Virus record (IMG/VR): IMGVR_UViG_3300032116_000838
Location: 1-32,257 of that record
Strand: one strand, 5' to 3'
Source of the DNA: a virus
DNA length: 32,257 nt
Made by a program: the position numbers and the translations under genes. Each line of letters begins with the position of its first letter. The stretch's first letter is position 1. Shown one piece after another: positions 3,919-31,929 of the stretch. The notes beneath the pieces were generated by a model. That model was not told the origin of the DNA. It ran no database searches and saw only the letters and a program-made list of their open reading frames with translations.

Positions 3919-3943
3919 CTATTTAATATAAATCCTTATTATT

Positions 3944-6591: not shown

Positions 6592-6608
6592 TGAAAAAAA
6601 AGTGTGAT

Positions 6609-6646: not shown

Positions 6647-6650
6647 CTCT

Positions 6651-9703: not shown

Positions 9704-9704
9704 T

Positions 9705-10631: not shown

Positions 10632-10863
10632 AAGTAGACACTACGGAGACGTGGGAAAATGGATTGAAAAAGTAATTGACTCTTGTAAGACTGTTGATCA
10701 AGTTATAACAACAAGAAAATTAATTAGAAACTTTGATAAACAAATACAAAATAAACATATCGACGCTTACTGGCATACATACTATTATGAGTTAATACAA
10801 CCACTTGAGTATTACCTTCAAAATAAAGGCGACGAAATCTTTAATGAAAAACTCAAATCATGA
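10621..10863 (+). CDS. Small helical protein, paralogue of 30375
   Basis: 80 residues. Core IEKVIDSCKTVDQVITTRKLIRNF (about 15-38) aligns without gaps with the product at 30375-30581 (I-x-K-[VI]-x-S-C-x-T-x-x-Q-[VL]-x-[TS]-x-K-L-[IF]-x-N-F), so the two are paralogues. Function unknown. Starts within the last 11 bases of rfbB and ends with an ATGA overlap. Confidence 0.7.
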   Translation: MENRSRHYGDVGKWIEKVIDSCKTVDQVITTRKLIRNFDKQIQNKHIDAYWHTYYYELIQPLEYYLQNKGDEIFNEKLKS

Positions 10864-11105
10864 CAGGATACCTAACACAAACACTTGGAGAATGGATGGT
10901 TAAAGATCAGAATGATGATAAACTCTATCCATTATGTGAAGAAACAAAAAAATGGTTACTCAAAGAAAGTACAAAAAAATTCTTGAAAGAAGATTTAGAA
11001 GTGGTTTTTGATTTTATTATCAAAGGAGAATATTGTGAAACCAAAGAACAGATGACCAAAAATTATTTTGCAAAAATTAAACGAGTAGAACACGACAGCC
11101 TATAA
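10860..11105 (+). CDS. Small hypothetical protein, 81 aa
   Basis: Soluble, charged, helical (LTQTLGEWMVKDQNDDKLY, then EETKKWLLKESTKKFLKEDL, then EYCETKEQMTKNYFAKIKRV). No family recognised. ATGA overlap upstream; five bases before the next gene, so co-transcribed with the sugar genes. Confidence 0.65.
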   Translation: MTGYLTQTLGEWMVKDQNDDKLYPLCEETKKWLLKESTKKFLKEDLEVVFDFIIKGEYCETKEQMTKNYFAKIKRVEHDSL

Positions 11106-11109
11106 AGTT

Positions 11110-12018
11110 ATGAGTGAATTTGGTATTAAGGTATCTGGATGTTTGGGTGATATTATAAATGTCACACCTTTAATAAAATATATAAGTAGATGTCACAATG
11201 TTAAGTTACACTTAGAGACAAATTTACCTAATCTTTTTATAAATAATCCATATATAAAAAAAGTTTATGATACTAATTCTGGTGAAATAATTCCTGAAAA
11301 CGTTTTAATTTACGACTGCAATATCCACCAAAATAACGGGATTCAAAAACAAATAAGAAAAATGTCAATGTTCGATTATTTTTCAACTTCATTAGGATTT
11401 CAAGTTCTACCTGAAGAAAGAACATTAGAGTTTTATCCTGATCCTTTAGATTTTGAATTACCAAGTGGAAAATATGTAGTTTTAAATCCATCAATAACTT
11501 GGGAATCGAGAACTTGGCCTAAAGAAAAATGGGAGGAATTGGCTAATAAAATTTTATCTTCAGGACTTAAAGTTGTTATTGACGGTAAAGACGTAAATTA
11601 TGGGGATGATAAAAAAACATTCCATAACATTAATAATGAGAATATAATAAATACTGGTAATAAGTTAAACTTATCACAACTTTGGCATTTATTGAATAAT
11701 AGTTTGGCTGTTGTGACTTTAGATACGGGTATGTTACACTTTGCTGGTACTACAAATGCACATATAATTGAAGTTGGTAGTGCTATTCATCATTATTATA
11801 AGACTCCATGGAGAAATGGTAGTCAAGAATATAAACATACATTTGTTGGTGGATCTTGTAAGTTATTTTGTCAATCTGATATGAAATATAATACTAATGG
11901 ATCAAATAAAATAACTGATGGGTTCCCAAGTCACGGATGTTTTGAAAATAAACCGACATTCGAATGTCAACCATCAGTAAACGGAGTATTCAACGCCGTT
12001 TTAGAATTATTAAAGTAA
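11110..12018 (+). CDS. Glycosyltransferase family 9-like (heptosyltransferase-like)
   Basis: 302 residues with the layout of ADP-heptose:LPS heptosyltransferases: N-terminal GCLGDIINVTPLIKYI, a middle LNPSITWESRTWPKEKWEELA, and the C-terminal sugar-nucleotide region LWHLLNNSLAVVTLDTGMLHFAGTT. The C-terminus adds a cysteine-containing stretch (SCKLFCQSD, SHGCFENKPTFECQP) seen in some phage and environmental relatives. Substrate unknown; it may glycosylate phage proteins or alter host surface sugars (inference). It is followed closely by a methyltransferase and a second glycosyltransferase. Confidence 0.82.
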   Translation: MSEFGIKVSGCLGDIINVTPLIKYISRCHNVKLHLETNLPNLFINNPYIKKVYDTNSGEIIPENVLIYDCNIHQNNGIQKQIRKMSMFDYFSTSLGFQVLPEERTLEFYPDPLDFELPSGKYVVLNPSITWESRTWPKEKWEELANKILSSGLKVVIDGKDVNYGDDKKTFHNINNENIINTGNKLNLSQLWHLLNNSLAVVTLDTGMLHFAGTTNAHIIEVGSAIHHYYKTPWRNGSQEYKHTFVGGSCKLFCQSDMKYNTNGSNKITDGFPSHGCFENKPTFECQPSVNGVFNAVLELLK

Positions 12019-12028
12019 AAATTAAGTT

Positions 12029-12640
12029 ATGGAAAATAGATTAGAATTACCAAATCTTTTGTCACAACTATCATTAAAAACAAAAGGGGTTGAGGTAGGA
12101 TCTTTCAAAGGAGAATTTGCCGCTCACATTATAAGAAATTGGTCAGGTAAAATTTATTTAGTTGACATTTGGAGACCAATGAATGAAGATGAATATAACG
12201 ACGCAACAAATAATAAATATCATATTGACGCTTATTCTAGTGTTATTGAAAATTTAAAAGGATATGAAGATAGAGCATTCATGTTACGTATGACAGGTAA
12301 TGAGGCTTCTAAACTATTTTCCGATGAATCACTAGATTTTGTTTATATTGATGCCAATCACACATATGAAGCGGTAAAAGATGATTTGAAAGACTGGTAT
12401 AGGAAAGTTAAATCTGGAGGATTAGTGATGGGTCATGATTATTTACCTGATTATTTTTATGAAGGTAAAGAAGAAAAAAATCAAGCAGTTTATACTTATC
12501 CTGATGGTAAACCTGAATTGGCAAAATTTTCAGGATTTTTTGGTGTCAAACCAGCAGTTGATGAGTTTGCATCAGAAAATGGTTATACTGTAAATAAAAC
12601 TAATGAGTTTTTAGGAACTTGGTGGTTTATAAAAAAATAA
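12029..12640 (+). CDS. SAM-dependent methyltransferase (Methyltransf_24-like)
   Basis: 203 residues, class I Rossmann methyltransferase: motif I VEVGSFKGEFA (about 20-30), acidic strand end YLVDIW, and a motif IV-like FVYIDANHTYEAVKDDLKDW followed by KSGGLVMGHDY. The D-A-N-H-T-Y-E segment is characteristic of the Methyltransf_24 group, which often modifies sugars next to glycosyltransferases. Its position between two glycosyltransferases suggests methylation of a glycan; not demonstrated. Confidence 0.85.
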   Translation: MENRLELPNLLSQLSLKTKGVEVGSFKGEFAAHIIRNWSGKIYLVDIWRPMNEDEYNDATNNKYHIDAYSSVIENLKGYEDRAFMLRMTGNEASKLFSDESLDFVYIDANHTYEAVKDDLKDWYRKVKSGGLVMGHDYLPDYFYEGKEEKNQAVYTYPDGKPELAKFSGFFGVKPAVDEFASENGYTVNKTNEFLGTWWFIKK

Positions 12641-12649
12641 TATAATAAT

Positions 12650-13777
12650 ATGATTGAAAAAATTCCAGTTGTACTATATTGTACGGAAAATTATTTAGAA
12701 GGATCTTTAAATTTAATTAGAAGTCTAAATTTATATCACAACGATTTAACTTTCTATCTATATACCGTTAATTTTTTATACAAACCAACAATAGAAAATG
12801 TTAATAGTGTTTTTATCACTGAGGAACAAATAGATAGTAATATCCAATTTAAAGGTACTAGAAATGACATTGGAAATACAAATGTTTATAAAGCAATTTT
12901 TTTAAAAAGTAGAATTATATTACATTCATTAGAAACTTTAAAATTAAATAATACAATATATTTGGATTCAGACTTATTACCAACAGGTAATATCTCAAAT
13001 TTGTATCAATATTTTGATAAAATAACACATTACCCATTAATCCAACAGGGAATATATGAATATCAAATTGCTTTTGGTAGGGGAAATCCATTTCATAATG
13101 GGGGATTTGATGAAACAAATATTTTGGAATACCCATTAATGAAAAAACATTTCATAAATATACAAAATAGAAAACCTTATTCTGTCGCTTCAGTAATGTT
13201 ATATAACCAAAATTGCATTCAATTCATTAGAGAATATAATTGGTTAAATAATTTAGCATTTGATATGACAAGAGATGAAATTGAATATTTTTACCCTTTT
13301 TGTGATGAAACATCAGTCAATACATTACTTTGGAAATACCAATATAATGATAGATTACCTCTGATGCAAATGAATATTAGTAAAATTGAAAATGTACTCG
13401 AATATTTTGAATCAAATTATAATGAAGAACTTGAAGTAGAACCGTTTGTCTTCGTACCAAAAAATTCTGAAAGAAAAAGATTCATATTTTTTCATGGCAT
13501 CAAAGGTAAAATGTCTGATGATACATTCATGTTCCAACAAAATATGTTTAAATATAGATTGGATAATAACGAAAATAAGATGTACATTTCTTCCAATGTA
13601 AATTTTAGTAGAGATCTTGAAATTAATATTTTTGACAACGATCAAAAAACATATTCATTGATAACAACAATTAATAAAGGAATAGAGTATTGGATATCAA
13701 CATCTAAACAATTTTTAGATTATAAAAAGTTAATTGTTAAAATATACGACGACGGAAAACTAATTTTTAAAATATGA
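12650..13777 (+). CDS. Putative GT-A glycosyltransferase
   Basis: 375 residues. The N-terminal ~270 residues look like a GT-A nucleotide-sugar transferase: IPVVLYCTENYLEGSLNLIRSL at the start and a DxD metal site in IYLDSDLLP (Asp106, Asp108), later HNGGFDET and PFCDETSVNTLLWKY as in GT8-like enzymes. The C-terminal ~90 residues are beta-rich and could be a separate carbohydrate-binding module. The gene looks more AT-rich than its neighbours, possibly from recent acquisition (visual impression only). Confidence 0.68.
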   Translation: MIEKIPVVLYCTENYLEGSLNLIRSLNLYHNDLTFYLYTVNFLYKPTIENVNSVFITEEQIDSNIQFKGTRNDIGNTNVYKAIFLKSRIILHSLETLKLNNTIYLDSDLLPTGNISNLYQYFDKITHYPLIQQGIYEYQIAFGRGNPFHNGGFDETNILEYPLMKKHFINIQNRKPYSVASVMLYNQNCIQFIREYNWLNNLAFDMTRDEIEYFYPFCDETSVNTLLWKYQYNDRLPLMQMNISKIENVLEYFESNYNEELEVEPFVFVPKNSERKRFIFFHGIKGKMSDDTFMFQQNMFKYRLDNNENKMYISSNVNFSRDLEINIFDNDQKTYSLITTINKGIEYWISTSKQFLDYKKLIVKIYDDGKLIFKI

Positions 13778-14217: not shown

Positions 14218-14447
14218 AAAAACTATTTTTAATTTTAACCACAGCAATTGTGGTATCTTCTTGTGATGGAGGGAGCGGTAACTACAAATATGTGATTTAT
14301 GACAATCGAGGAATGGTATATGAATGTAATTTCTATAACAAAAATGAAGATGGGTGTGTTATGTTTAATGATAGACCTGGTAAAGACAACACACCTGGTA
14401 CACCAACAATTTTATGTGGGAATTATACAATTCAAAAAATGAAATGA
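14214..14447 (+). CDS. Small lipoprotein, 77 aa
   Basis: Signal peptide MKKLFLILTTAIVV with lipobox SSC (lipidated Cys17), then DGGSGNYKYV. The mature domain of ~60 residues is beta-like with three more cysteines (Cys38, 47, 68). No family recognised. ATGA overlaps on both sides. One of several tiny lipoproteins in the window. Confidence 0.72.
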   Translation: MKKLFLILTTAIVVSSCDGGSGNYKYVIYDNRGMVYECNFYNKNEDGCVMFNDRPGKDNTPGTPTILCGNYTIQKMK

Positions 14448-15796
14448 AAAATCCATCAGGAAATAAATTAGAGAAACTTGTCTTTGGGATGTTTGACCAA
14501 ATGGTTGAAGGTGCCGACAAGTATGTGACAAAACAAGGATCAACTTGGTTGATCTTCACCGAAAGTAGAAAATGGGTGATTGAGTTCACAAAAGATAAAA
14601 CCTTATGGTTCAACTATAATGTATTTCAAAATGAGTTGGATCTGATCGGTAAGGACTGCACCGAAGAAAGAGATTTGATTAAGAACTGGTTTGAATCAAG
14701 ATTTTTGAATAAACCAAAGATTGATGAAACTTTGGACAATGCTGCTAATATGATTCATCATATTGAAGACACCATTCAAAATGGGGTGAAAGAGGCCCAT
14801 CATGTTGATGTTATGAAGTTTTTTGATAAAAAAATGGAAAATACAATTCAAAATGGGGTGAAGAACACCTACCACTTTCAAACTGAGATTCCTAACCAGG
14901 TTGAAGACGTCATTCAAGAGGGGGTGAAACGCACTTTTGACATGGAATTCCGAAACCAGTTAAGTGTTGAAGACACCATTCAAGAGGGAGTGAAGGACAC
15001 CCTAAAAATATCAAACAAGCGTTCAAAGTCAGTTGAAGACACCATTCAAAATGGGGTGAAAGAAACAACACCTAGTGGTTATTTGGGTTCAATAGAGATG
15101 AAAGGGAAAATAGTTCATCAAATTGAATCTCCAAAACAAAATAATGAGGTTGAAGACACTATTCAAAATGGGGTAAGACACACCAAATCTTACAACTATA
15201 CCCGCAAGCGTTTCGTTGAAGACACCATACAAAATGGTGTTAAAGAAACCAAAGAGGATAGACTTTTTCGTACCATACATGTTATGAATACAATTAAAAA
15301 TGGAGTGAAAGAAACTAAAGAAAGTATGTTGGAAAGTTTGGAACAAATGGACCACCAGGTTACTAATAGTGAGATTACAGAAAACATTAACGACGCAATT
15401 GAAAATGGTGTTAAAGAAACTAAAGAAATTTCAAATATTAACTTAATGTCTGAAATTTTTAAGGTTAATGCGAAACAAGCAATAAGAGATGGTGTTAAAG
15501 AACTTAAAGTATGGAAATCCAATAGATGTGAAGAACACGGTTATTTTGAATTTGTTGATGGGATTCCAACATACACACCTATGATTCAAGTTAAGGATGT
15601 ACTTGAAAATGGTGTTAAAGAAATACAACCACTACCAGCACAAGATGGTAATAGAGATTGGGGTTTATATTATCACAGACAAGAAGATAGAACAAAACCA
15701 CATACAGAATATGTGAAAGAAGTTATTGAGGATTCTTACAATCATATGGGTAGAGTTGAAGGTGTAATTAGAAATACAAATAAAGATGGGATTTGA
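14444..15796 (+). CDS. Repeat protein with eleven DTIQNGVK-type motifs
   Basis: 450 residues from MKNPSGNK. Residues 1-95 form a mixed domain (MVEGADKYVTKQGSTWLIF, KWVIEFTKDKTLWFNYNVF, ERDLIKNWFESRFLN). The rest carries eleven copies of a motif close to E-D-T-I-Q-N-G-V-K-E-T, starting at residues 108, 132, 154, 176, 198, 237, 259, 281, 316, 344 and 384. Most successive copies are 22 residues apart; sequence between copies is unrelated. Copies 1-7 are nearly identical in DNA, later ones drift. Family and function not recognised. Repeats of this type suggest a repeated binding element or amphipathic helix. It overlaps the lipoprotein gene by ATGA and the next gene by 11 bases. Confidence 0.78.
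   Translation: MKNPSGNKLEKLVFGMFDQMVEGADKYVTKQGSTWLIFTESRKWVIEFTKDKTLWFNYNVFQNELDLIGKDCTEERDLIKNWFESRFLNKPKIDETLDNAANMIHHIEDTIQNGVKEAHHVDVMKFFDKKMENTIQNGVKNTYHFQTEIPNQVEDVIQEGVKRTFDMEFRNQLSVEDTIQEGVKDTLKISNKRSKSVEDTIQNGVKETTPSGYLGSIEMKGKIVHQIESPKQNNEVEDTIQNGVRHTKSYNYTRKRFVEDTIQNGVKETKEDRLFRTIHVMNTIKNGVKETKESMLESLEQMDHQVTNSEITENINDAIENGVKETKEISNINLMSEIFKVNAKQAIRDGVKELKVWKSNRCEEHGYFEFVDGIPTYTPMIQVKDVLENGVKEIQPLPAQDGNRDWGLYYHRQEDRTKPHTEYVKEVIEDSYNHMGRVEGVIRNTNKDGI
14765..15619 (+). repeat. Eleven in-frame coding repeats, mostly 66-bp period
   Basis: Copies of about 26 bases close to GAAGACACCATTCAAAATGG plus GGTGAA start at 14765, 14837, 14903, 14969, 15035, 15152, 15218, 15284, 15389, 15473 and 15593. 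Every interval is a multiple of three and six of the ten are exactly 66 (14837 to 15035 and 15152 to 15284, with 72 before). The intervening DNA is not similar between copies. This is a protein repeat, not a CRISPR array. Confidence 0.9.
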
Positions 15797-16418: not shown

Positions 16419-17585
16419 ATGAATAAGTTAGATAAACAATACCAAGATTTACTCCAAACTATTTTAGATTACGGAGTTGAAAAGAAAGACCGAACAGGTA
16501 CAGGAACCAAAAGTATTTTTGGTTATACCATTCGTCATAACATGAAAGATGGGTTCCCATTACTTACAACCAAGAAGATGGCTTGGAAAACTATGGTGAC
16601 CGAGTTATTATGGTTCCTTCGTGGTGATACAAACATTAAGTTCCTTGTTGATAATGGTTGTCATATTTGGGATGGTGATGCGTACAAGAATTACTGTACC
16701 GCTTATAAAGATGGTCACGAATTTTATGAGGATGAACAAGTAAAGCGTTCTTTTACTCAAGAAGAATTCATCAACAAAATCAAAACAGATGATGAGTTTG
16801 CTAAAAAGTGGGGTGAATTAGGTCCCGTGTATGGTAAGCAATGGAGAAGTTGGGGTAGTAATATAATAGATGAGTTGGGTAATGTTTATACCAATGAAGT
16901 TGATTACGATATTCAAAATGGAAAATTACCATATGGTTCTTCCAATAGAAAATTTGTTATTGATGAAATTAAAAAATTAAACCCGTCAATAGACCAAATC
17001 CAAAACCTAATCCGTGACCTTAAAACAAATCCAGACTCAAGACGATTAATGGTTTCAGCTTGGAATGTTGGAGAATTAGACCAAATGGTACTTCCACCTT
17101 GCCATTATGGATTTCAAGTTTATACAAGAGAGTTGAGTTCACAGGAACGCAAGGACATTTACGATAAGTCAAACCACGCGAAAGATATCTTTCCAACCGA
17201 TGAAAATGGATGGAATAACTTATTTGATGGATTTAATATTCCAACCAGAGCAATCTCTTTAATGTATAACGCTAGAAGCCAAGATGTTCCACTTGGAACA
17301 CCATTTAATTTGGCATCTTATGGATTACTTCTAACAATATTAGCAAAGGAGGTTAATATGGTTCCTGATGAGTTAATTTCAAATATGGGTGATTGTCACA
17401 TATACCTTAATCAGATTGATGGTGTAAAAGAACAATTAACAAGAGAACCATTTGAGTTGCCAACCCTTAATCCATTCCCAACTTATGAAGGGTCAAGACC
17501 ATCTATAGAATCTTATGTTATTGGTGATTTCACACTTAAAAACTACCAATCACACCCGACTATCAAAATGCCGCTTTCTAACTAG
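16419..17585 (+). CDS. thyA: Thymidylate synthase (ThyA type)
   Basis: Makes dTMP from dUMP with methylenetetrahydrofolate for phage DNA synthesis. Visible: DRTGTGT (24-30), phosphate-binding Arg25; ELLWFLRGDTNI (62-73); LGPVYGKQWR (134-143); DSRRL; SAWNVGELDQM; catalytic Cys228 in LPPCHYGFQ; RSQDVPLGTPFNLASY (286-301); and the C-terminal MGDCHIYLNQ. At 388 residues it is ~120 longer than E. coli ThyA; extra sequence lies at about 86-130, 148-188 and 238-280, but the reading frame is intact and all core motifs are present. A hairpin and a homing endonuclease gene follow directly. Confidence 0.93.
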   Translation: MNKLDKQYQDLLQTILDYGVEKKDRTGTGTKSIFGYTIRHNMKDGFPLLTTKKMAWKTMVTELLWFLRGDTNIKFLVDNGCHIWDGDAYKNYCTAYKDGHEFYEDEQVKRSFTQEEFINKIKTDDEFAKKWGELGPVYGKQWRSWGSNIIDELGNVYTNEVDYDIQNGKLPYGSSNRKFVIDEIKKLNPSIDQIQNLIRDLKTNPDSRRLMVSAWNVGELDQMVLPPCHYGFQVYTRELSSQERKDIYDKSNHAKDIFPTDENGWNNLFDGFNIPTRAISLMYNARSQDVPLGTPFNLASYGLLLTILAKEVNMVPDELISNMGDCHIYLNQIDGVKEQLTREPFELPTLNPFPTYEGSRPSIESYVIGDFTLKNYQSHPTIKMPLSN

Positions 17586-17591: not shown

Positions 17592-17649
17592 TAGGACTAC
17601 CCTTTAACTTTTTAACTTTTGTAGATATTTATATTAAAAGGTAGTCCTA
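17592..17649 (+). promoter_or_regulatory. Long hairpin ending on the start codon of the homing endonuclease
   Basis: AGGACTACC (17593-17601) pairs with GGTAGTCCT (17640-17648); the base pair outside it joins T17592 to A17649, the A of the ATG. After one C-A mismatch, five more pairs (TTTAA 17603-17607 with TTAAA 17634-17638) extend it inward around a 26-base loop. In read-through transcripts from thyA this would bury the start region; transcripts begun inside the loop would lack the 5' arm. Confidence 0.72.
17626..17633 (+). promoter_or_regulatory. Late-promoter-like motif TATTTATA
   Basis: TATTTATA with 15 bases to the ATG at 17649, the same placement as before the endolysin, 21696 and 31963 genes. 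Transcription would start near 17640, at the edge of the 3' hairpin arm. Confidence 0.5.
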
Positions 17650-18383
17650 TGATTGGAATTTATAGAATAAAAAATTTGAAAAACAAAAAGTGTTATTATG
17701 GTTCTTCTAAAAATATAGAAAAAAGATGGAGAACACATTCAAACAACTTAAAAAACGGAAAACATCATAATATCCACTTACAAAGGTCTTGGGATAAGTA
17801 TGGTGAGGATAATTTTGTGTTTGAGTTGGTTGAGGAGTGTAATGAAACTATATTACTTGAGTTAGAACAAAAATACTTGGATTTAAACCCTGAGTTCAAT
17901 ATAGGGATTAAATCAAGTGGAGGAGATAATCTTACAAAAAACCCAAATAAAGAAGACATTGTTCGTAAAATGACTCAATCAGTTAAAAAAAGATATGAAT
18001 TAATGTCTGAAGATGAAAGAAAAGAAAAACATTCCCAACCGATGGATAAAAATCCAAATTGGAAAGGTGGTACAAGTTTTAAATATTGTGAATGCGGTGT
18101 AAAAATATTACCAACCAACAATATTTGTATAAATTGTAGAGATAAGAGTGGTGATAAAAATCCATTTTTTGGAAAACAACATACAGAAGAGACAAAACGA
18201 AAATTAAGTGAATTTAGAAAAGGAACTTATAATGGAGAACAAAATATACCTATAATAATTGATGATATTGAATATAGGTCTGCCGGTGAAGCGTCTAAAT
18301 TACTTAACATACCTATGGTAACTATTAGATGGAGAGTTAAAAGTAAAAACAAAAAGTTTGACAATTACAGATATAAAAATTAA
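17649..18383 (+). CDS. GIY-YIG homing endonuclease with NUMOD motifs
   Basis: 244 residues, free-standing homing endonuclease of the I-TevI/Seg type. N-terminal nuclease: GIY (3-5), YYG (16-18), Arg26, His30, His40, Glu71/Glu73 and Asn84, matching the order of I-TevI active-site residues. Then two NUMOD3-like DNA-binding motifs (DKNPNWKGG at 133, DKNPFFGKQHTEETKRKL at 169), a possible zinc site Cys147/149-Cys160/163 between them, and a NUMOD1-like helix-turn-helix (YRSAGEASKLLNIPMVTIRW, 209-228). Such enzymes cut a phage genome lacking the gene so it is copied in. It lies between thyA and a small gene without interrupting either. Confidence 0.92.
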   Translation: MIGIYRIKNLKNKKCYYGSSKNIEKRWRTHSNNLKNGKHHNIHLQRSWDKYGEDNFVFELVEECNETILLELEQKYLDLNPEFNIGIKSSGGDNLTKNPNKEDIVRKMTQSVKKRYELMSEDERKEKHSQPMDKNPNWKGGTSFKYCECGVKILPTNNICINCRDKSGDKNPFFGKQHTEETKRKLSEFRKGTYNGEQNIPIIIDDIEYRSAGEASKLLNIPMVTIRWRVKSKNKKFDNYRYKN

Positions 18384-20750: not shown

Positions 20751-21587
20751 TTACTTAAGTAAGTTATAATACTCTTTGAAATGTTTGATTCGATCAGGTA
20801 AGCCAATAGTTCCACCATTCACTCTCTTTGTCACTGCAGTTACAGTTGCATCATCCGTACCTTTATCACAGATTGACCATAATTTATTTGAGTCAAAGAA
20901 GAATGCTGCCGATGCTAAAGGATATTTGGTTGCAACTAAATCAGGGTTCGCAACACAATCTTCACCAATGAATTTTGTAAAGTTAGTATAGTTTGCCTTA
21001 CCTGTTAATTGAATGTAACCTCTACCTCTAAATTTAAAACCTTCTTTAGATGCTTCATCACCATTACCCATTCTTGATGCGTAAACACGAGATGCGATTT
21101 TTTCAGGTTGACGAGCATAAGACTCATTCAGGTTACCAGGGAAATACTTACCAAAGATTTTCTTTAAACCATCGGCAGAGTAATTCAAGTTCTCACTAAC
21201 CGCTTTAAAACCGCCTGACTCGTGACCACATTGCGCTAAGAAATGAGCTAGTCTTAAATTATTTGTGATGTTGAATTTTTTGGCAGTTTCAGGTATCTGT
21301 GCAAGAACTGCATCAGGAATGTGACCCTTTAATTTTTCAATATTTAATGGACCTCCTGATGGGATAACCACATCCTCTTTAATAACTTCTGCGGTAGGTT
21401 TTGACTCACCAAATAGTTTTGCCCATGTGGCATCACCAACGATACCATCATCTTTTAAACCATTTGCTTTTTGCCAAGCTTTAACCGCGGCTTCTGTTTT
21501 AGGACCAAATTTTCCAATTGCTTCTACACCTAATTTTTCTTGGAGTTTTTTTACGTCAGCTCCTTCTGACCCAACTTTTAGTACCAT
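20751..21587 (-). CDS. Endolysin: peptidoglycan-binding plus GH19-like domain
   Basis: 278 residues from MVLKVGSEGADV. Residues 5-58 are a peptidoglycan-binding type 1 domain (DVKKLQEKLG, GKFGPKTEAAVKAWQ, DGIVGDATWAKLFG). A GH19-type chitinase/lysozyme domain follows from about 85 to 278: HFLAQCGHESGGF with likely catalytic Glu123, second acid candidate Glu132, RGRGYIQLTGKANY (187-200), and VTKRVNGGTIGLPDR (252-266). It should cleave cell-wall glycan for host lysis. No signal peptide, so release probably needs a holin. A start at 21626 would add 13 residues and cover the promoter motif. It is the only minus-strand gene in the window. Confidence 0.9.
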   Translation of the reverse strand: MVLKVGSEGADVKKLQEKLGVEAIGKFGPKTEAAVKAWQKANGLKDDGIVGDATWAKLFGESKPTAEVIKEDVVIPSGGPLNIEKLKGHIPDAVLAQIPETAKKFNITNNLRLAHFLAQCGHESGGFKAVSENLNYSADGLKKIFGKYFPGNLNESYARQPEKIASRVYASRMGNGDEASKEGFKFRGRGYIQLTGKANYTNFTKFIGEDCVANPDLVATKYPLASAAFFFDSNKLWSICDKGTDDATVTAVTKRVNGGTIGLPDRIKHFKEYYNLLK

Positions 21588-21602
21588 AATTTTTGATTTT
21601 CC

Positions 21603-21610
21603 TATAAATA
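21603..21610 (-). promoter_or_regulatory. Late-promoter-like motif for the endolysin
   Basis: On the minus strand the bases read TATTTATA and end 15 bases before the endolysin ATG. The plus strand shows TATAAATA. Confidence 0.5.
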
Positions 21611-21673
21611 GTAAATTCTCAGACAAAGTAAAGATTTTATTATAAAAAAAACCTCAGTTCGTGAATTTTGAGA

Positions 21674-22320: not shown

Positions 22321-24228
22321 ATGAAACAATTCAAAAGTCTGTTATTCGGACTTTTATTCTTTTTACCATTCATTGGTAAAGCTCAAGTACCCGCAGCACC
22401 ATCAAACGGATTGTGGGGTATCATTGCAGCCCAATATCAAGTTGGGACAACAGCACAAGGCACAACAAACGCAAAGATTACATTACAAAACACAACCCTT
22501 ACAAAATTTGCAGGGGTACAGTTTAGAGTATTCTACGATAATGTAGCGTTTACAAATGCAACCGTATCTCTTATCGGATCATCAACAAACTTAGACCTTC
22601 AGTTTATCACCAACACAACAAATGGATACATTACCATTACTTTGGTTTATACAGGTCCAAGTGCGACTTACACGATTCCAAATGGTGAGAGATTTCTAAT
22701 TACCTTTACTCACGCACCAGCGGCAACATTTAATAACTTGGCGTCTATCTCCAACTTAACTTGGACGGGACCTCAGTCTTTTACACCATATGCCGCTAAA
22801 CAAGATGGTATGGACACAACATTAAGTGTCCATAACTATGGTGGTGTGTTTACTCCTGTGAACTTTGCTTATCATGGAACGTTCACAAACGTTACAGGTT
22901 CTCCTGCCAAATATCTGAATTTAGCATTACAGAGAAGACCATTTGGTGGAAACACTTGGACACAACATTCTACTTATGTTACTGATATCAACGGGGACTT
23001 CAACATCTCAGTTCCATTAGATACTACATATTGGGATGTGAGACTTGCAATTCAAGGAGACACAATGGGTGTTGGTAATATTATTTCGTCAACAGATGCT
23101 CAGCTAATCAATCAGTGGGTTTTAGGTAACGGAACTATGACTGGATTTGATTACTACACGGCAGATGTGAATGGTTCTAATAGTACAACTATATCTGATG
23201 TATGGGGTGTGTTTGGTAGAATCTCAGGAAGATTTAACGTATGGCCTAACAACACAAAAGATGTTAAATTCTTTACTGCATCTGAATATACAACTATTAA
23301 CGGATCGGCAACTAACTACACATCAACAATCGCAGGGGTAACAAACTTTACATTTGATATCTTACCGGGTCAACCTGACTCTGTGGTTTATTATGTGATG
23401 GTTCCTGGTGACGCTAACGGTACAGGTTACAACATGGCTCGTGTTACTCCAATTGAAGTATTGGTTGGACCCATACCAGGTTTAGAGTCACAAATCTATA
23501 ATGTAATTGATACTAAAGTTGAGTATGATTTCCCAACATCAACAATTGAAGTAAATGTTCCTCACATTTCTGTTGAAGCTGGAAACTTGGTTGAATTACC
23601 TGTTAAAGTTTTCACAAACGGAGAAGAGTTATCATCACTTCAGTTTGGATTGAAATATGATACTGACCTATTAGAATTTAAAGGTGTGTATTCTTCATCA
23701 AATGCTATGGAATGGATTACATATGTAAATCCAAACGATGGTCAAGTTGATTGGGGTGGATTTGATCCTACAAATAATGAACAACCATTAGTAGATGGTG
23801 ATGAGGTTGTGACTTTACAATTTATCGCAAAACAACCACAGAACCTATGGGAAGAAAGTCCTCTTTACACTTCTTTGAAATTCGCAGGGACAACTCAGTC
23901 TGAAGATTTAACAATCACACCGACAAATGGAATACTTCAAGTACTAAAGAGTAATATGGGTGTGGTGATTGGAAATACAATCTCTGTAGTTCCTAATCCT
24001 GTAGTTGATGAAGTTACCATTTCATTTGAAGTTAAAGAAACAACAAACGCAAACCTATCAATTTCGGATGTTGTTGGAAGAAAGTTAATTACAATCTTGG
24101 ATGGTCAATTACCAAACGGAGAGTATAACTATGTTGAGAACTTAGGTAGTTTAGAAAGAGGACTTTACTTAGTTACATTAACTATGGAAAACGGAGAAAC
24201 TAAAGTTTCAAAAATTGTAAAACAATAA
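22321..24228 (+). CDS. Secreted cohesin/dockerin-like protein with T9SS sorting domain
   Basis: 635 residues. Signal peptide 1-22 (KSLLFGLLFFLPF, cleavage after GKAQ). Residues ~35-160 and ~412-543 are two cohesin-like beta domains (e.g. VEAGNLVELPVKVF, LQFGLKYDTDLLEFKGV). Between them is a dockerin-like part with an EF-hand-like loop (DVNGSNSTTISD, 282-293), GRISGRF (299-305), and PGDANGTG (362-369). Residues ~556-635 form a type A T9SS C-terminal sorting domain (VVPNPVVDEVTI, SDVVGRKL, LERGLYLVTL, KIVKQ end). The family knowledge: such tails send proteins through the Bacteroidota type IX system to the surface. Such a protein is unexpected in a phage; it could reach the surface of infected cells. 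Confidence 0.82.
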   Translation: MKQFKSLLFGLLFFLPFIGKAQVPAAPSNGLWGIIAAQYQVGTTAQGTTNAKITLQNTTLTKFAGVQFRVFYDNVAFTNATVSLIGSSTNLDLQFITNTTNGYITITLVYTGPSATYTIPNGERFLITFTHAPAATFNNLASISNLTWTGPQSFTPYAAKQDGMDTTLSVHNYGGVFTPVNFAYHGTFTNVTGSPAKYLNLALQRRPFGGNTWTQHSTYVTDINGDFNISVPLDTTYWDVRLAIQGDTMGVGNIISSTDAQLINQWVLGNGTMTGFDYYTADVNGSNSTTISDVWGVFGRISGRFNVWPNNTKDVKFFTASEYTTINGSATNYTSTIAGVTNFTFDILPGQPDSVVYYVMVPGDANGTGYNMARVTPIEVLVGPIPGLESQIYNVIDTKVEYDFPTSTIEVNVPHISVEAGNLVELPVKVFTNGEELSSLQFGLKYDTDLLEFKGVYSSSNAMEWITYVNPNDGQVDWGGFDPTNNEQPLVDGDEVVTLQFIAKQPQNLWEESPLYTSLKFAGTTQSEDLTITPTNGILQVLKSNMGVVIGNTISVVPNPVVDEVTISFEVKETTNANLSISDVVGRKLITILDGQLPNGEYNYVENLGSLERGLYLVTLTMENGETKVSKIVKQ

Positions 24229-24250: not shown

Positions 24251-24583
24251 ATGTCAGAAGAAACACAAGACACAAACGACGGAACGTGGTCAGGATTAAA
24301 AAAGACCATCGTTGGTACATTATCAACAGTAATTGCTGGTGGTGGAACATGGTTAGGTGTTATGTTATATGGTGGAGGTGAGGAAGAACCAAAAGAGGAA
24401 ACAAAAACAGAACAGTCTGGAGGTCAAGCACCAATCACTATTAACGTACAACAAAATCAAGAGAATAAACAAAAAACTGAGAACAATAATGGTGGTGGTG
24501 TAATTCGTGAAAGAATTATCGAAAAACCTGCGGCTCAACAACCAACCCAACCTCAACCTAAAAAAGAGGAAGAGTCTTGGTAA
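24251..24583 (+). CDS. Single-pass membrane protein with disordered Gln/Asn/Pro tail
   Basis: 110 residues: short acidic N-terminus, one membrane helix (about 18-41, IVGTLSTVIAGGGTWLGVML), then a tail rich in Glu, Gln, Asn and Pro (INVQQNQENKQKTENNN, AAQQPTQPQPKKEEE). Such layouts occur among phage holin-like or spanin-like proteins, and the lysis genes are nearby, but no family was recognised. It sits between the T9SS protein and a second membrane protein. Confidence 0.65.
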   Translation: MSEETQDTNDGTWSGLKKTIVGTLSTVIAGGGTWLGVMLYGGGEEEPKEETKTEQSGGQAPITINVQQNQENKQKTENNNGGGVIRERIIEKPAAQQPTQPQPKKEEESW

Positions 24584-24606: not shown

Positions 24607-24888
24607 ATGGCACAAAAGAAAACAAAAAAATCATTCTTAGTAAGAATGTTTATGGATCAAAACGACATCAACGAAAAATCAATCGTAGGTTTCGGATCAT
24701 TTTTAATGATGGTAATTTGTTTAGGTGTAGATATCTACACAGGATTTCACGGACAAGAAATGCCAATCAACAAATTTATCTACGATGGTTTTTTATGGAT
24801 CACTTTAGGTTCATTTGGAATTGCTTCAGTTGACAAATATTTGTCAGGTAAAAATCAGAACAACGAAGAAGAAGAAGTAGAAGGGTAA
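24607..24888 (+). CDS. Two-helix membrane protein, holin candidate
   Basis: 93 residues: basic N-terminus (KKTKKSFLVRMFMDQNDINEKS), helix 1 about 26-47 (VGFGSFLMMVICLGVDIYTG), helix 2 about 58-77 (FIYDGFLWITLGSFGIASVD), and a charged tail KYLSGKNQNNEEEE. Size and topology fit a class II holin, and the family of small phage proteins with D-K-Y-L after the last helix looks familiar, but context alone cannot prove lysis. One-base overlap (TAATG) with the CsgG-like gene. Confidence 0.65.
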   Translation: MAQKKTKKSFLVRMFMDQNDINEKSIVGFGSFLMMVICLGVDIYTGFHGQEMPINKFIYDGFLWITLGSFGIASVDKYLSGKNQNNEEEEVEG

Positions 24889-25628
24889 TGAAAAGAATAC
24901 TTTACATATTACCACTTTTATTGATTGGATGTAAAACATTACAAGCCCAGCCCCCTCAAACAGGAGGGGGTATTGGCTCTGTTAAGACAGAACAATATGT
25001 TGCTGATTTTGAAAAGAAACAATCAATAGACTCGGTTGCTGATTACGACGGATCAATCCAAGTTCCAATCCAATTACTAAAGATTGGTATTAATGAAGAA
25101 CTTTACGAATTATATCCTGAGTTAAAAGATAAAAGAGTAGGTCTTGGTGTAACAAATATTGTAATTGAATATTTGGAATACACTAACAGATTTATTTTCA
25201 CCGAAGAAAAGGAAGAGATCAAACAAAGAATGATTGCACAAGATAAAGCATCAGACAAGGGAGTATCTTCAAATAAAATCGAAGTGAAAGGTAATGTTGT
25301 ATTGGCTAAGTACTTTGTTTATATTGAGGTATATGATTTCTCAGTATCAGAAGACGAAGTTGTAAAAGTTAATGGACAACAAACCGTAAATCAAACTACA
25401 AGATTAGGTCTTCAGATCAAATTTGTAGATGCTGAAACAAGTCAAGTGATTGTAGGATCAGGACTTGGAGAAGCAGTAACAATTAAAACAACATCAATCT
25501 TGGGTGATATCTCAGATGATGTTAAATTCAACCAATCAACTGTAGGTATATCTACAAAAAAAGCTTTAGAGACAGCTTCATCAAGAGTTGTAACTAGACT
25601 TATATCAAAAGGTGTATTTCCAAAGTGA
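24888..25628 (+). CDS. CsgG-like outer-membrane lipoprotein
   Basis: 246 residues. Lipoprotein signal MKRILYILPLLLIGC with lipidated Cys15. The body resembles CsgG, the nonameric curli secretion pore: GLGVTNIVIEYLEYTNRFIF (84-103), a charged helix with RMIAQDKAS, KYFVYIEVYDFSV, a strand pair TTRLGLQIKFVDAETSQVIV, then FNQSTVGISTKKALETASSR near the end. CsgG-type proteins secrete amyloid subunits or act in envelope transport; here no CsgA, CsgB, CsgE or CsgF is evident. Coupled by ATGA to the beta-barrel gene, so the two products likely act together. Confidence 0.8.
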   Translation: MKRILYILPLLLIGCKTLQAQPPQTGGGIGSVKTEQYVADFEKKQSIDSVADYDGSIQVPIQLLKIGINEELYELYPELKDKRVGLGVTNIVIEYLEYTNRFIFTEEKEEIKQRMIAQDKASDKGVSSNKIEVKGNVVLAKYFVYIEVYDFSVSEDEVVKVNGQQTVNQTTRLGLQIKFVDAETSQVIVGSGLGEAVTIKTTSILGDISDDVKFNQSTVGISTKKALETASSRVVTRLISKGVFPK

Positions 25629-27295
25629 GAATAAACATTTGTATATCTTTGTTGTTCGTCTTGTTTAGTTTCTTCAATCTAAACGCACAGACCTACAACT
25701 ATTCTTACACCGATCCTTGTACTGGAAATGTAAAAAATATCATAGTCCCCATCAATGGCTCAGTCACGGTGGGGTATTATGGTTTTGTCGAGAACTTCAC
25801 TCAACAACAATTTGTCGATGGAACTTTTGAAACTTGGGTCAACCAAGTTTTTTCACAATATGACGGATCTCCTTGTTCAGAAATAATTGGACTTGGTGGT
25901 CAAATAAACATGGCTCAAGATGTCGCATTAAACACGATAGGTATTATCAACTCATTATCATCTTTAATGGACATATCAAACGGAGCCACAGATTTTCTTA
26001 GCGGTAGTTTAACCGCAGCATCTAATTCTTCTAACACTAACGGAAACAAAGGTAACAAGAAGAATGGGAATAGTTCCCAAAATGGAAGTGGAAATAATAA
26101 TACAACAACAAATACTAATAACACCACGACCAATAACAATCAAATACAAAATAATGGAACAAGTAACACTAATGAAGGAAGTACAACCACTTCTGGAACA
26201 AATGAAACAAGTTCAAACAACGGAGGAAATGGAACCACTAATCAAAATGGTGGAACTCAAAATCCAACATCAGCAGGAGGAACTACAACTGAGGGTGGAT
26301 CAAATGAGAATGGAAATTCACAGGCTATCGAGCCTATAAACAATCAAAACACTAATACAAATGAAAACAATAGCAATACTTCTGTCGGTGGCAATACTGG
26401 GGAGTCTAGTGGGAATGGGACTAGTGGGAATGGTGAAGGAAATAATCAAACAAACCAAGAAGTAACAAATAATGGTTCTTCAACTAACCCTAACGGTAAT
26501 GGTTTTAATAACGGTGGGAACTCTGGTATGGGGAATAATAGTGGAAACCCACCCAATGGGGAGGAAACTACAACCCAAACAGAGGAACAAGGAGGACAAA
26601 CAAACATTACCCAAGGGGCAACCAAAACAGTAAATCAGAATAGGGAAGGTGGAAAACCCACAGTCATTGCATCAAGCGACTTTGTGGGTTTTAACTTTCA
26701 AAACTCTGAAGTTAGAACAGGATTAAAATTAACAGGGGGATATCATAACATGCGTTGGGACGGTGAAACTGCTCGTGGTGGTTTAGTTGATTATGTATCG
26801 GCACAGAGAGGACCAAACATGACAGGATATCACGCATGGATCAACAAAAGGAGTGTGGGACTTTTATCAGGAACTTTATCTTTAGGATTTGAAGGTAGGG
26901 GATCTGTTTATGGTACTTTGGCGGGAGGACAAATGTTCATGTTCCCAAAGGTGCCGAGTCTTAAAGCGGTTTATATGGGAACAATATCATACGGACAGGT
27001 CTATAAAACACCATTTATCGGATCAGCACTTATTGCTGGTGGAATGTACGACTTAAAGTTTGGTAAAAGAATAGATATAAAGTTAATGACTTTATTTGTC
27101 TATTCACCATATGTAAGTTACTATAACGATTTAGTATTGAAATCACCTTATGTTATTCTACCAAGTTTAGGAACTAACATAAGTATAACGAAAAGATTTA
27201 AATTCAATATAAATGCAGGAGGGGCGTGGGCAATCAAGGTAAACACTTTAAATTATACAATAACATGTGGAACAAGATTATTAGTTGGACAATAG
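25625..27295 (+). CDS. Secreted protein with Asn/Gly linker and C-terminal outer-membrane barrel
   Basis: 556 residues. Signal peptide 1-22 (ISLLFVLFSFFNLNAQ). Residues 23-130: a small domain (YNYSYTDPCTGNVKNII, ITVGYYG-like strands). Residues ~133-345: very low complexity, dominated by Asn, Gly, Thr and Ser, likely disordered. Residues ~350-556: alternating amphipathic strands (TGLKLTGGYHNMRW, LLSGTLSLGFEGRGSVYGTL, SLGTNISITKRFKFNIN, YTITCGTRLLVGQ) as in an outer-membrane barrel. The long linker could span from periplasm or surface to a partner. No named family. Overlaps CsgG by ATGA and the next gene by 31 bases. Confidence 0.72.
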   Translation: MRINICISLLFVLFSFFNLNAQTYNYSYTDPCTGNVKNIIVPINGSVTVGYYGFVENFTQQQFVDGTFETWVNQVFSQYDGSPCSEIIGLGGQINMAQDVALNTIGIINSLSSLMDISNGATDFLSGSLTAASNSSNTNGNKGNKKNGNSSQNGSGNNNTTTNTNNTTTNNNQIQNNGTSNTNEGSTTTSGTNETSSNNGGNGTTNQNGGTQNPTSAGGTTTEGGSNENGNSQAIEPINNQNTNTNENNSNTSVGGNTGESSGNGTSGNGEGNNQTNQEVTNNGSSTNPNGNGFNNGGNSGMGNNSGNPPNGEETTTQTEEQGGQTNITQGATKTVNQNREGGKPTVIASSDFVGFNFQNSEVRTGLKLTGGYHNMRWDGETARGGLVDYVSAQRGPNMTGYHAWINKRSVGLLSGTLSLGFEGRGSVYGTLAGGQMFMFPKVPSLKAVYMGTISYGQVYKTPFIGSALIAGGMYDLKFGKRIDIKLMTLFVYSPYVSYYNDLVLKSPYVILPSLGTNISITKRFKFNINAGGAWAIKVNTLNYTITCGTRLLVGQ

Positions 27296-28437
27296 TCCTT
27301 TTTACTTTCTTTTCTTTAGATGCTCAACCATTTACATATTCGGGTTATGTTTATGGTGCAAATAATCAAGGTATATCAAATGTAGCGGTAAACCTTTATG
27401 GTAGAAGGGTTGACCCTTATGAAGTAACATTTCCCACTTACAGTACTGCTGCTGCTTACAATGCAGGAACCGTGATTCCTTCATCAGACGATGTAACTCA
27501 TGGACCATTCAACATTGGATTTACTTTTACCTTTTTTGGTAATAACTATACCCAATTTTACGTAGGTTCAAATGGGTGGATTGGATTTAGTGCGAATCAA
27601 ACAACAGGTTATACCGCAGCATACATACCAAATGCAGGATCACCAAGGAATGTTATCATGGCAGATTGGGAAGATTTATTTCCAGGATCTGCAAACATTT
27701 ACTATACTACAATAGGGACAGCACCGAATAGAAAATTAGTGGTGTCCTTTAATTCAGTTCCACATTATGGATGTAGATCAAACCTACACACCTTTCAGTT
27801 TGTTCTTACTGAAACTTCTAACACAATCGACATAAATTACCTATCAAAACCATTGTGTACTGGTAATAACTCAACAGCAGGTCTTGTGAATATTGATAAT
27901 ACAAATGTGGTTCCTGTAGGAGGAAGAAACGCATCTGCTTGGTCTACCTCAAATTCGAGTGTAAGATTCACACCATCACCAGCAGAAACAGTTTTCACGC
28001 TAAAAGGAACTTATCTTACAAACGCATCAGGTTACTATAACATAGTTCCAAATTTAGACGCTCAATCCTTTGTATTCGAAGTAAGGTTGGAAACAATACC
28101 AATTACATCATATACGATTACAGATGCTAGAGCTCCTCTTATGATTTTATTAAATAACACAACAATGAACTCAAAGTTGTGGTATCAAATGGACATTAAC
28201 GGAGATACTAAAATTACTGTTTCAGATTCGTATAATATTTATGGAAGAATTTCAGGAAGATTTACATCTTGGTTCTCACCTAACTATAGAATATTCACAC
28301 CGGCTCAATGGTCGGCGATAAATGTAGGAACCACAGATCTCAGAGTTTTATATCCTGGAGTTCAGTCCATGACTATAACACCTGTGAATGGGGGATCAAC
28401 TAACTTTCATGTTATAAGAACAGGAATAACAAATTAA
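27265..28437 (+). CDS. Secreted beta-rich protein sharing the GRISGRF module
   Basis: 390 residues from MWNKIISWTIVLFTFFSLDA; this start gives a clean signal peptide ending DAQ, whereas the ATG at 27226 does not. An N-terminal adhesin-like strand (SGYVYGANNQGISNVAVNLY) is followed by a beta-sandwich typical of Bacteroidota surface proteins (FNIGFTFTFFGNNYTQFYVG, NGWIGF, MADWEDLFPG, LHTFQFVLTETSNTIDINY). Near 309-352 it has DINGDTKITVSD, YGRISGRF and FTPAQWSAIN, clearly related to the 282-326 region of the T9SS protein at 22321. No T9SS tail is present, so it may be carried out by another route or by its partner. Confidence 0.75.
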   Translation: MWNKIISWTIVLFTFFSLDAQPFTYSGYVYGANNQGISNVAVNLYGRRVDPYEVTFPTYSTAAAYNAGTVIPSSDDVTHGPFNIGFTFTFFGNNYTQFYVGSNGWIGFSANQTTGYTAAYIPNAGSPRNVIMADWEDLFPGSANIYYTTIGTAPNRKLVVSFNSVPHYGCRSNLHTFQFVLTETSNTIDINYLSKPLCTGNNSTAGLVNIDNTNVVPVGGRNASAWSTSNSSVRFTPSPAETVFTLKGTYLTNASGYYNIVPNLDAQSFVFEVRLETIPITSYTITDARAPLMILLNNTTMNSKLWYQMDINGDTKITVSDSYNIYGRISGRFTSWFSPNYRIFTPAQWSAINVGTTDLRVLYPGVQSMTITPVNGGSTNFHVIRTGITN

Positions 28438-28441
28438 AATT

Positions 28442-28894
28442 ATGAAAAATATAATCTTACTACTCAGTATGTTACTACTTGGTAACCTCGCAATGGCTCA
28501 ACAATGTGTTTATGTTGATTCAGTTTACAACACAGCTAAATTAAAAGAAATGGGAAACCGAGACATTCGTTTTGGTATTAGACAAATTGTTGAAGACGAA
28601 CTGTCTGAAAAGTTTTGTTTATCTGAAGATGGAAAGGATATTGATGTTGAGGTGTATTACTTTGGATTACCGAAAACGACAATTAGAATTGTTGGTGTTG
28701 AGAAAACAGAATCAGTTACACAGGTTGGTGTAAGATTATATTACGATGGTAAATGTTATGAAGGTATTGGGGAATCTGAAACTGAGATTAAAGCAATCAT
28801 GATTGAAGTAAAAGAGGGTATGTTACCTTTTGAAAAGATGACAGTATCATCAGCACTAAAAAAGGCTATTCACGAAGCCGTTATCAAAATATGA
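28442..28894 (+). CDS. Periplasmic protein with signal peptide, 150 aa
   Basis: Signal peptide MKNIILLLSMLLLGNLAMA, cleavage before QQCVY. The mature part alternates helices and strands (FGIRQIVEDELSEKF, DIDVEVYYFG, TQVGVRLYYDGKCYEG, SALKKAIHEAVIKI). The strand order and final helix recall the CsgG/TolB-N-like periplasmic fold, but this is weak. Start context AAAATT-ATG; ATGA overlap with the metallopeptidase gene. Confidence 0.68.
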   Translation: MKNIILLLSMLLLGNLAMAQQCVYVDSVYNTAKLKEMGNRDIRFGIRQIVEDELSEKFCLSEDGKDIDVEVYYFGLPKTTIRIVGVEKTESVTQVGVRLYYDGKCYEGIGESETEIKAIMIEVKEGMLPFEKMTVSSALKKAIHEAVIKI

Positions 28895-29343
28895 AAATAT
28901 GGCAACTTTTGATATTGTTAATGTTTTGGTCATCATCTTTCTCGCAAATCCGTATTGCAGATGTTGGAGATGGTTGGAAAAATAAAGTAGAACAAGCTTT
29001 AGACACCATAAAGAAATATGATGTTCAGAAGTATTATCTAATTATGGAGAACTGCTCTAATGTTGCGTATTGGAACGGAGGATTCTCAACGACAGAAGGA
29101 GATAGTACAATCACCATCCCAACAAGAGAAATGAAAGACGGAAATATCTATAACATTTCTGCGATACTTGTTCATGAATCCCTACATTTATTCTTTAAAA
29201 GAACAAACTTCAACCTAAAACCTAATCTTGAAGAAGTTGTATGTTATCAACACGAGTTGGAGTTTTTAGAAAAAATACCTTGTGTTGATTATTGGTTAAT
29301 AGAAAATGCTAAAAACAAAATCAAATTTTATTCAAAACCATAG
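28891..29343 (+). CDS. Secreted HExxH metallopeptidase-like protein
   Basis: 150 residues with a signal peptide (KIWQLLILLMFWSSSFSQ, about 1-19) and a zinc-binding HESLH motif (His95, Glu96, His99) in AILVHESLHLFFK; a downstream Glu in LEEVVCYQHELEF (114/115) could be the third ligand, as in gluzincins. Small and without a visible propeptide. A zinc endopeptidase in the periplasm or outside the cell is likely; the substrate could be a neighbour's product or host surface protein (inference). Last gene of the surface cluster; a short hairpin and a promoter follow. Confidence 0.72.
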   Translation: MKIWQLLILLMFWSSSFSQIRIADVGDGWKNKVEQALDTIKKYDVQKYYLIMENCSNVAYWNGGFSTTEGDSTITIPTREMKDGNIYNISAILVHESLHLFFKRTNFNLKPNLEEVVCYQHELEFLEKIPCVDYWLIENAKNKIKFYSKP

Positions 29344-30724: not shown

Positions 30725-31432
30725 ATGATACTTACAATAATTTCTGACACTCACAACAAACACAAACACGTTACAGGTGATTTGAAGGGTGGTGATTTAT
30801 TATTACATGCCGGTGACCTTTCTTCTATGGGTTACGAACACGAGATCCGTGAGTTTGCTAAGTGGTATAATGGTTTAAACAACTACCACCATAAAGTGTT
30901 TATTTCTGGTAACCACGATTGGGGATTTCAAAACAATGTTGAGAAAGTCAAAAGTATCTTATCTGAATATGACACTATCAATTACCTACAAGATGATTGG
31001 ATTACAGTTGGAGATGGTGACCCACATGATAATAACACACAAACTGTTAAAATTTGGGGTAGTCCATGGCAACCTGAGTTCTATAATTGGGCGTTTAACT
31101 TACCACGAAATGGTGAAGAGTTGAAGGCGGTATGGGATATGATTCCTGAAGATATTGATATCTTGATTACTCACGGTCCAGCTTGGGGATTCTTGGATGA
31201 TGTAGAAGGTCGTCGAAATGATCACTTGGGTTGTGAGTTACTTGCAGAACGAATCAAACAAATAAAACCAAAGATCCATATCTGCGGACACATCCATACT
31301 GGTTACGGACATTACTATGATGGACATACACACTACTTCAATGCTGCAGTATTGAATGAACGATACTTATACGCTCATTTACCTTGGCACATTGATTGGA
31401 ACCCAATAACAAATGAAATACAATTTTTATAA
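30725..31432 (+). CDS. Calcineurin-like metallophosphoesterase
   Basis: 235 residues with all metal-binding motifs of the calcineurin-like superfamily: SDTHNKH (Asp8, His10), LHAGDLSS (Asp31), SGNHDWG (Asn63, His64), LITHGPAWG and CGHIHTGYG. Probably a two-metal phosphodiesterase or phosphatase; substrates in this superfamily range from nucleic acids to cyclic nucleotides. A role in degrading a host defence signal or nucleic acid is speculation. Full length; its last base is the first base of the rfbC start (TAATG). Confidence 0.88.
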   Translation: MILTIISDTHNKHKHVTGDLKGGDLLLHAGDLSSMGYEHEIREFAKWYNGLNNYHHKVFISGNHDWGFQNNVEKVKSILSEYDTINYLQDDWITVGDGDPHDNNTQTVKIWGSPWQPEFYNWAFNLPRNGEELKAVWDMIPEDIDILITHGPAWGFLDDVEGRRNDHLGCELLAERIKQIKPKIHICGHIHTGYGHYYDGHTHYFNAAVLNERYLYAHLPWHIDWNPITNEIQFL

Positions 31433-31929
31433 TGGAGAAAGCACACTTTATTGAAAACAGAGTCTTTAGAGATAAAAGAGGGACATTCAGCCCATTAGAT
31501 CTTGCCAAGTTAGATAAGAATTGGTTACAGAGTAATATTAGTGTAAACCCCCGTAAATACACACTTCGGGGGTTACACTTTCAAAAGAATGAATACGCTC
31601 AAGCCAAACTAATTAAAGTTATATCTGGTAGGATATTAGACTTTGTTGTTGATCTTAGAATGGTATCAGAAGATTATAATAAAATTTTCTTTTTTGATAT
31701 GAAAGAGGGTGATGAGGTATATGTGCCAAGATATTTTGCTCACGGATTCATAACAACCGAAGAAAACTCGGTAGTTCAATATTTGGTTGATAATGAATAC
31801 AGTCCTGAGAATGAAGGAGTTAAAGTTTGGACTGACTATCCTGAGATAGTTAAAGAAGTACAAAAATACAATGAGTGGTTCCTTGAGGAATTTGTAGTCA
31901 TACACGATAAAGATTTGGTTGAAAAATAA
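31432..31929 (+). CDS. rfbC: dTDP-4-dehydrorhamnose 3,5-epimerase
   Basis: 165 residues, cupin fold RmlC type; epimerises dTDP-4-keto-6-deoxyglucose, the product of RfbB. Visible: RGLHFQ with catalytic His49, AKLIKVISGRILDFVVDLR (58-76), VYVPRYFAHGFIT with His104, and YLVDNEYSPENEGVKVW with Tyr123. Slightly shorter than the common ~180 residues but with all core strands. It supplies the step after rfbB (9705) although 21 kb separates them. Confidence 0.9.
   Translation: MEKAHFIENRVFRDKRGTFSPLDLAKLDKNWLQSNISVNPRKYTLRGLHFQKNEYAQAKLIKVISGRILDFVVDLRMVSEDYNKIFFFDMKEGDEVYVPRYFAHGFITTEENSVVQYLVDNEYSPENEGVKVWTDYPEIVKEVQKYNEWFLEEFVVIHDKDLVEK

Follow-up and report, generated by a model that had tools for sequence, protein, structure and literature searches.

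The locus raises the question of why a virus should encode a protein that ends in the C-terminal tail of bacterial T9SS cargo, and which other proteins belong with it. The window, i.e. the whole stretch of DNA that was analysed, comes from IMG/VR, where it is a virus record of 32,257 bases; among its phage-type genes are an RNA ligase, a head-maturation-protease/ClpP-like gene, a thymidylate synthase and an endolysin. An ORF directly following the thymidylate synthase gene (16419-17585) resembles GIY-YIG-type homing endonucleases by inspection (17649-18383, plus strand) and is possibly mobile. The plus strand also carries a 460-aa ORF (14414-15796) with about ten imperfect 42-nt repeats, many of them 66 nt apart ((V)EDTIQNGVKET-like units), and this ORF had no PHROG match. 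The protein with the tail, here called COH, was found exactly where an earlier note on this DNA had placed it, and has the following parts:

22321..24228, plus strand: COH, 635 aa; signal peptide, cohesin-like, transthyretin/CNA-B-like, dockerin-like and cohesin domains, T9SS tail
22390..22854, plus strand: COH residues 24-178, weaker cohesin-like domain
22879..23052, plus strand: COH residues about 187-244, transthyretin-like/CNA-B-like, with weak PDB profile matches
23047..23253, plus strand: COH residues 243-311, dockerin-like domain with a canonical second F-hand loop
23524..23958, plus strand: COH residues 402-546, cohesin domain, identified by Pfam and predicted structure
23989..24225, plus strand: COH residues 557-635, T9SS type A C-terminal sorting domain (TIGR04183)

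The end of COH had been read as a type A T9SS tail, and a search with the TIGR04183 model had been proposed. This search gave a match to residues 557-635 above the curated cut-off (E=4.3e-10; 39.4 bits, cut-off 23), and the Pfam family Por_Secre_tail (PF18962) likewise matched the C-terminus above its cut-off (E=1.1e-9). The PF18962 tail was present in all of the 19 diverse COH homologues scanned, and the PNP, GRK and GLY motifs are retained in COH. When whole records were searched, each contained a single T9SS tail, located in an ORF of the size of COH (9/9; eight virus records and one MAG); among control genomes TIGR04183 exceeded its cut-off in 1 of 14. The N-terminus of COH is signal-peptide-like (MKQFKSLLFGLLFFLPFIGKAQ). 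The curated models and the established knowledge of T9SS strongly support the prediction that the COH tail is recognised by this system.

The interior of COH was analysed domain by domain. The second of the two cohesin-like domains suggested earlier was borne out: Pfam Cohesin matched residues 409-508 with E=3.2e-10 (40.8 bits, cut-off 24.1), and the predicted structure of residues 402-546 aligned with 6kgf_C (CaCohA2) over 137 residues at 2.8 Å (Z 14.5). The first domain is weak by comparison. Scanned alone, it matched Pfam Cohesin (PF00963) in 13 of 19 homologues, with a best E-value of 2.3e-5, the copy in the window scoring 17.1 bits, below the curated cut-off of 24.1; no cohesin likeness of residues 24-178 was detected by profile comparison with the second domain or by PDB profile search. 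The EF-hand-like region noted between the cohesins is present, and its identity could be specified as dockerin-like, as about 70 residues aligned with the ScaB dockerin 4uyp_B (E=2e-4, PDB profile search). Pfam Dockerin_1 (PF00404) gave 17.0 bits for COH, under its cut-off of 22.9, and E-values as low as 7.8e-5 in COH homologues. The domain has one canonical 12-residue loop, DVNGSNSTTISD (the second loop), and a degenerate first calcium loop. An additional conserved stretch (residues 312-400) separates it from the cohesin domain. The model of the whole protein was of modest confidence (pLDDT 61, pTM 0.33) and renders the dockerin region poorly.

COH belongs to a module of six co-oriented genes, COH, TM, G, F, DOC and E, which in the window is arranged as follows, with two further ORFs that accompany the module in some or many relatives:

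24251..24583, plus strand: TM, small, charged at its tail, with one probable membrane segment; invariably located between COH and G
24607-24888, plus strand: holin-like ORF with two TM segments, located within the cassette; only some relatives have it close to the module (27 matches)
24888..25628, plus strand: G, lipoprotein of CsgG fold according to AlphaFold2 model and Foldseek
25625..27295, plus strand: F, exported; conserved N-terminal DPC domain, Asn/Ser/Gly-rich linker and C-terminal domain
27226..28437, plus strand: DOC, exported; the N-terminal binding module varies, the C-terminal domain is dockerin-like
28442..28894, plus strand: E, exported; related to G
28891..29343, plus strand: M, exported; contains the HExxH motif HESLHLF; often close to the module, in varying position and strand

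A scan of viral contigs yielded 88 COH relatives, from which 79 distinct loci were kept. With per-gene HMMs, 70 distinct modules were found in which each of the six genes is present exactly once, all on a single strand and within 5.5-9.2 kb. The order of the genes was COH-TM-G-F-DOC-E in 54 modules, COH-TM-G-F-E-DOC in 14 and DOC-COH-TM-G-F-E in 2. COH fell to 43% identity between modules, yet the full gene set was retained. When viral contigs were scanned with G instead, at least 560 relatives were found. Among the loci centred on the best 80 of these matches, 41 of 41 long loci had TM, F, E and a COH whose cohesin and tail share a single ORF; one DOC was found in every long locus when the COH- and G-centred sets were pooled. 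The linkage is no artefact of a search centred on COH, since the G-centred loci show the same gene set; G relatives more distant than the best 80 may differ in their gene linkage. The phages carrying the module form a widespread group, and probably all of them infect Bacteroidetes.

Signal-like N-termini were assigned by a simple and crude rule, which recognised 82/90 COH, 79/79 G, 75/75 F, 62/65 E, 68/70 DOC and 62/68 M proteins against 150/1044 other ORFs of the same loci, a large contrast. In addition, a lipobox-like site was present in 53 of the 79 distinct G homologues. M, perhaps a protease, gave a weak match to Tox-MPTase2, below the cut-off.

G is placed as CsgG-like by predicted fold only. 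The AlphaFold2 model had a pLDDT of only 66, and the top 17 Foldseek matches to it were all CsgG (best E 3.5e-7); VIA-align gave a Z of 11.8 against CsgG (168 residues, 4.2 Å), compared with 8.8 for the next fold, LptE. The best viral match of the G model was a phage CsgG. At the sequence level, Pfam CsgG matched 1 of 19 members of the G family (E=0.018), with nothing above the cut-off, hhalign against nine CsgG proteins gave about 2%, and G had no PDB profile match. A CsgG pore is not established for G, because its relation to CsgG is only distant. E proved to be a relative of G (hhalign, 94.6%, 6.7e-8) and was rejected as a CsgE, as comparison with nine CsgE/CsgF sequences gave 0% for CsgE. 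F was likewise rejected as a CsgF, since the same hhalign comparison, made with genuine CsgE and CsgF sequences, yielded no significant match. A search for CsgE in 240 genomes of one class found none. F had no match in Pfam, NCBIfam or PDB profile searches, and its C-terminal domain may, judged from its sequence, resemble an outer-membrane β-barrel.

DOC, whose true start is probably the ATG at 27265, links the module to the dockerin-like domain of COH. The C-terminus of DOC is homologous to that domain (hhalign, 99.7%, 5e-26), which makes DOC a likely partner of COH and agrees with the earlier suggestion that COH self-assembles or binds a second secreted protein. The N-terminal modules of 69 distinct DOC proteins comprised C-type lectin (49), LamG-like (15), PA14 (5), Ig_7 (4) and GEVED (4) domains. 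Cassettes that are otherwise nearly identical have exchanged this binding module for another. The window and one relative (L009) share 98.8% identity in G, 96.1% in COH and 98.7% in E, but about 35% in DOC; in another pair (L061 and L058) G was 99.6% identical, and DOC was 27.5% identical in its N-terminus and 78% in its C-terminus. The C-terminal domain of DOC fell to as low as 34% identity while COH was 96% identical, which speaks against a cohesin-dockerin pair of tight specificity; either the dockerin-like contact tolerates variation or its partner is not the cohesin. DGR-driven variation of DOC was considered and rejected, as the flanks examined, which do not cover distant elements, held no template DNA repeat of the 70 DOC genes.

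The N-terminus of DOC in the window matched neither lectin nor LamG. A counterpart of this module, 42% identical, is part of a 732-aa protein encoded by an uncultured phage of 634,780 bases; the C-terminus of the protein is a T9SS type B sorting domain (TIGR04131, 41.8 bits against a cut-off of 35). The segment of this large phage that was analysed (L208; LR745206.1 20077-32508) carries the T9SS type B cargo protein at 5692-7890, and on its minus strand, by inspection, an EF-G-like ORF (9941-11905) and a glutamyl-tRNA-synthetase-like ORF (3259-4116).

Among the isolates in the phage collection, the sole relatives were the Flavobacterium phages immuto (Immutovirus, MW353175-7), whose host is Flavobacterium sp. 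LMO8. The gene products gp13-gp19 of immuto, most of them annotated as hypothetical, constitute the whole module. The full module is common to immuto and the window, but in immuto COH is encoded by two genes and DOC lies upstream. The two COH proteins each have their own signal-like N-terminus: gp14 has cohesin-like and dockerin-like domains and the C-terminal end GDVNGTGLN, and gp15 has a cohesin and a T9SS tail (TIGR04183, 45.4 bits). Beside them, gp13 is a DOC of the C-type-lectin type. Parts that are split in immuto and fused elsewhere show the pattern expected of physically interacting proteins, here of cohesin with dockerin.

On balance, the cassette is probably a phage device for surface display, in which the Sec and T9SS machineries of a Bacteroidota host would anchor a cohesin scaffold that recruits exchangeable lectins. 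During infection, COH, F, DOC, E and the lipoprotein G would be exported by Sec. The host T9SS would recognise the tail of COH, carry the protein over the outer membrane and remove the tail, leaving COH attached to the surface. One or both cohesin domains of COH would then hold dockerin-like partners, namely the lectin-type protein DOC and/or another COH, giving a scaffold or short chain with the lectin at its end. G, F, E and TM would most likely act together in the envelope, as a complex by which DOC or COH gets to the outer membrane or through it. A T9SS tail is absent from DOC, which counts against surface display and leaves the route of DOC to the surface unexplained. The displayed binding module may alter what the infected cell adheres to, or what adheres to the cell, either by adhesion to neighbouring host cells or glycan-rich particles or by masking receptors against competing phages; adhesion and receptor masking are inseparable at the level of sequence. 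A more specific version, which we put forward tentatively and consider rather doubtful, is an adhesive organelle on the living host, in which T9SS-anchored COH units would be joined by cohesin-dockerin links, with an exchangeable lectin at the end that would tether the infected cell to uninfected hosts, particles or polysaccharide. If true, this would be, to our knowledge, the first virus-encoded cellulosome-like scaffold. The window also contains a run of sugar genes (9684-13777 and 31432-31929), with nucleotide-sugar epimerase/dehydratase and dTDP-4-dehydrorhamnose 3,5-epimerase-like genes, and with glycosyltransferase-like and methyltransferase-like ORFs by inspection; these may also remodel the host surface.

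The surroundings of the module could suggest a different use, in lysis or egress. G with TM, F and E would open or weaken the outer membrane late in infection, and the lectin and cohesin proteins would be accessory. In the window the module adjoins the endolysin gene (20751-21626) and includes the holin-like ORF, and the CsgGF of phage Melnitz and of pelagimyophages has been discussed in terms of lysis or egress, such a role having been proposed for Melnitz (PMC9004378, PMC7029224). In many modules, however, endolysin and holin-like genes are absent or located elsewhere; in immuto, nucleotide-metabolism genes border the module on one side and small ORFs on the other, and some 6 kb separate it from the annotated endolysin. 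A T9SS-anchored cohesin with exchangeable lectins has no obvious use in lysis either, and we regard a lysis module as unlikely. The variability of DOC could also be taken as a sign of host recognition by the virion, as receptor-binding proteins typically have exchangeable lectin and LamG domains. COH and DOC would then be receptor-binding or decoration proteins, and the T9SS-like tail a mere β-sandwich module. Against this stand the signal-like N-termini of nearly all members of five families and the lipobox-like sites of G, which indicate that the products leave the cytoplasm, the site of tailed-virion assembly. The COH tail also scores above the T9SS cut-off with its motifs kept, and neither COH nor DOC had a structural PHROG match. 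Together these observations make a virion component very improbable.

Cohesins, dockerins, C-type lectins and T9SS tails all occur in Bacteroidota, and the module might accordingly be an ordinary surface-protein cluster of a Bacteroidota host, recently captured and without a phage-specific role. This we consider highly unlikely, given the at least 560 viral contigs with G and the full gene set kept by modules with diverged COH. Moreover, the COH profile, applied to 84,980 species genomes by means of two short patterns, found a single cellular match, a 16.5-kb contig of a Sphingomonadaceae MAG; distant cellular relatives, such as a remote ancestor, could have been missed by such patterns. The contig is a misbinned phage, since its ORFs resemble phage loci throughout. 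It (L082, RFPL01000028.1) is also the source of the only T9SS tail in that MAG.

Surface display by means of COH and DOC has partial parallels in known systems. The earlier note had taken T9SS cargo to be foreign to phages; the tail of COH is indeed phage-borne, but T9SS tails have already been reported in phages (PMC7468147, PMC6949934). Cryophage has three variable T9SS type A cargo genes, for which a role in superinfection or competition was suggested (Bellas et al. 2020, PMC7468147). Both systems have phage-encoded type A tails and variability between phage variants. The Cryophage cargo, however, consists of single enzymes or a PA14 protein; in the module the tail belongs to a conserved cohesin scaffold, and it is a second protein, the dockerin-like lectin, that varies. 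Similarly, one crAss-BACON ORF of a Bacteroidota phage combines a carbohydrate-binding-type domain with a T9SS tail; unlike the module, it comes with no mention of a cohesin/dockerin or CsgG-fold partner in the part of that source consulted (PMC6949934). CsgG/CsgF genes occur in pelagimyophages (PMC7029224) and Melnitz (PMC9004378). These curli (type VIII) genes resemble the module in that a phage CsgG-fold protein is encoded in an operon with other exported proteins; the module differs in having no detectable CsgE or CsgF, a G that is CsgG-like by fold only, and T9SS cargo and lectins. The likeness to Clostridial cellulosomes lies in the cohesin fold (Z 14.5), the dockerin-like domain (4uyp_B, 2e-4) and the modular-looking surface proteins. 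In contrast to these cellulosomes, the module is viral, has one or two cohesins per scaffold, a T9SS tail in place of the cell-wall anchor, lectins in place of glycosidases, and a degenerate calcium loop 1 in the dockerin. No description of a phage cassette with cohesin, dockerin, T9SS tail and lectin was found in the open-access literature (subscription papers and preprints lay outside the search). Overall, phage-borne T9SS cargo is already known, and it is the cohesin/dockerin/lectin architecture that was not found in the literature searched.

The module offers a possible partner context for phage CsgG-like proteins such as those of pelagimyophages. The question can be addressed experimentally, because the cultured phage immuto and its host Flavobacterium sp. 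LMO8 provide a system that carries the module. The exchange of lectins between near-identical phages is a natural experiment on the targets of surface binders. If the proposed display of COH and DOC is true, phages would carry a whole assembly that redecorates the surface of Bacteroidota during infection, going beyond single enzymes with borrowed secretion.
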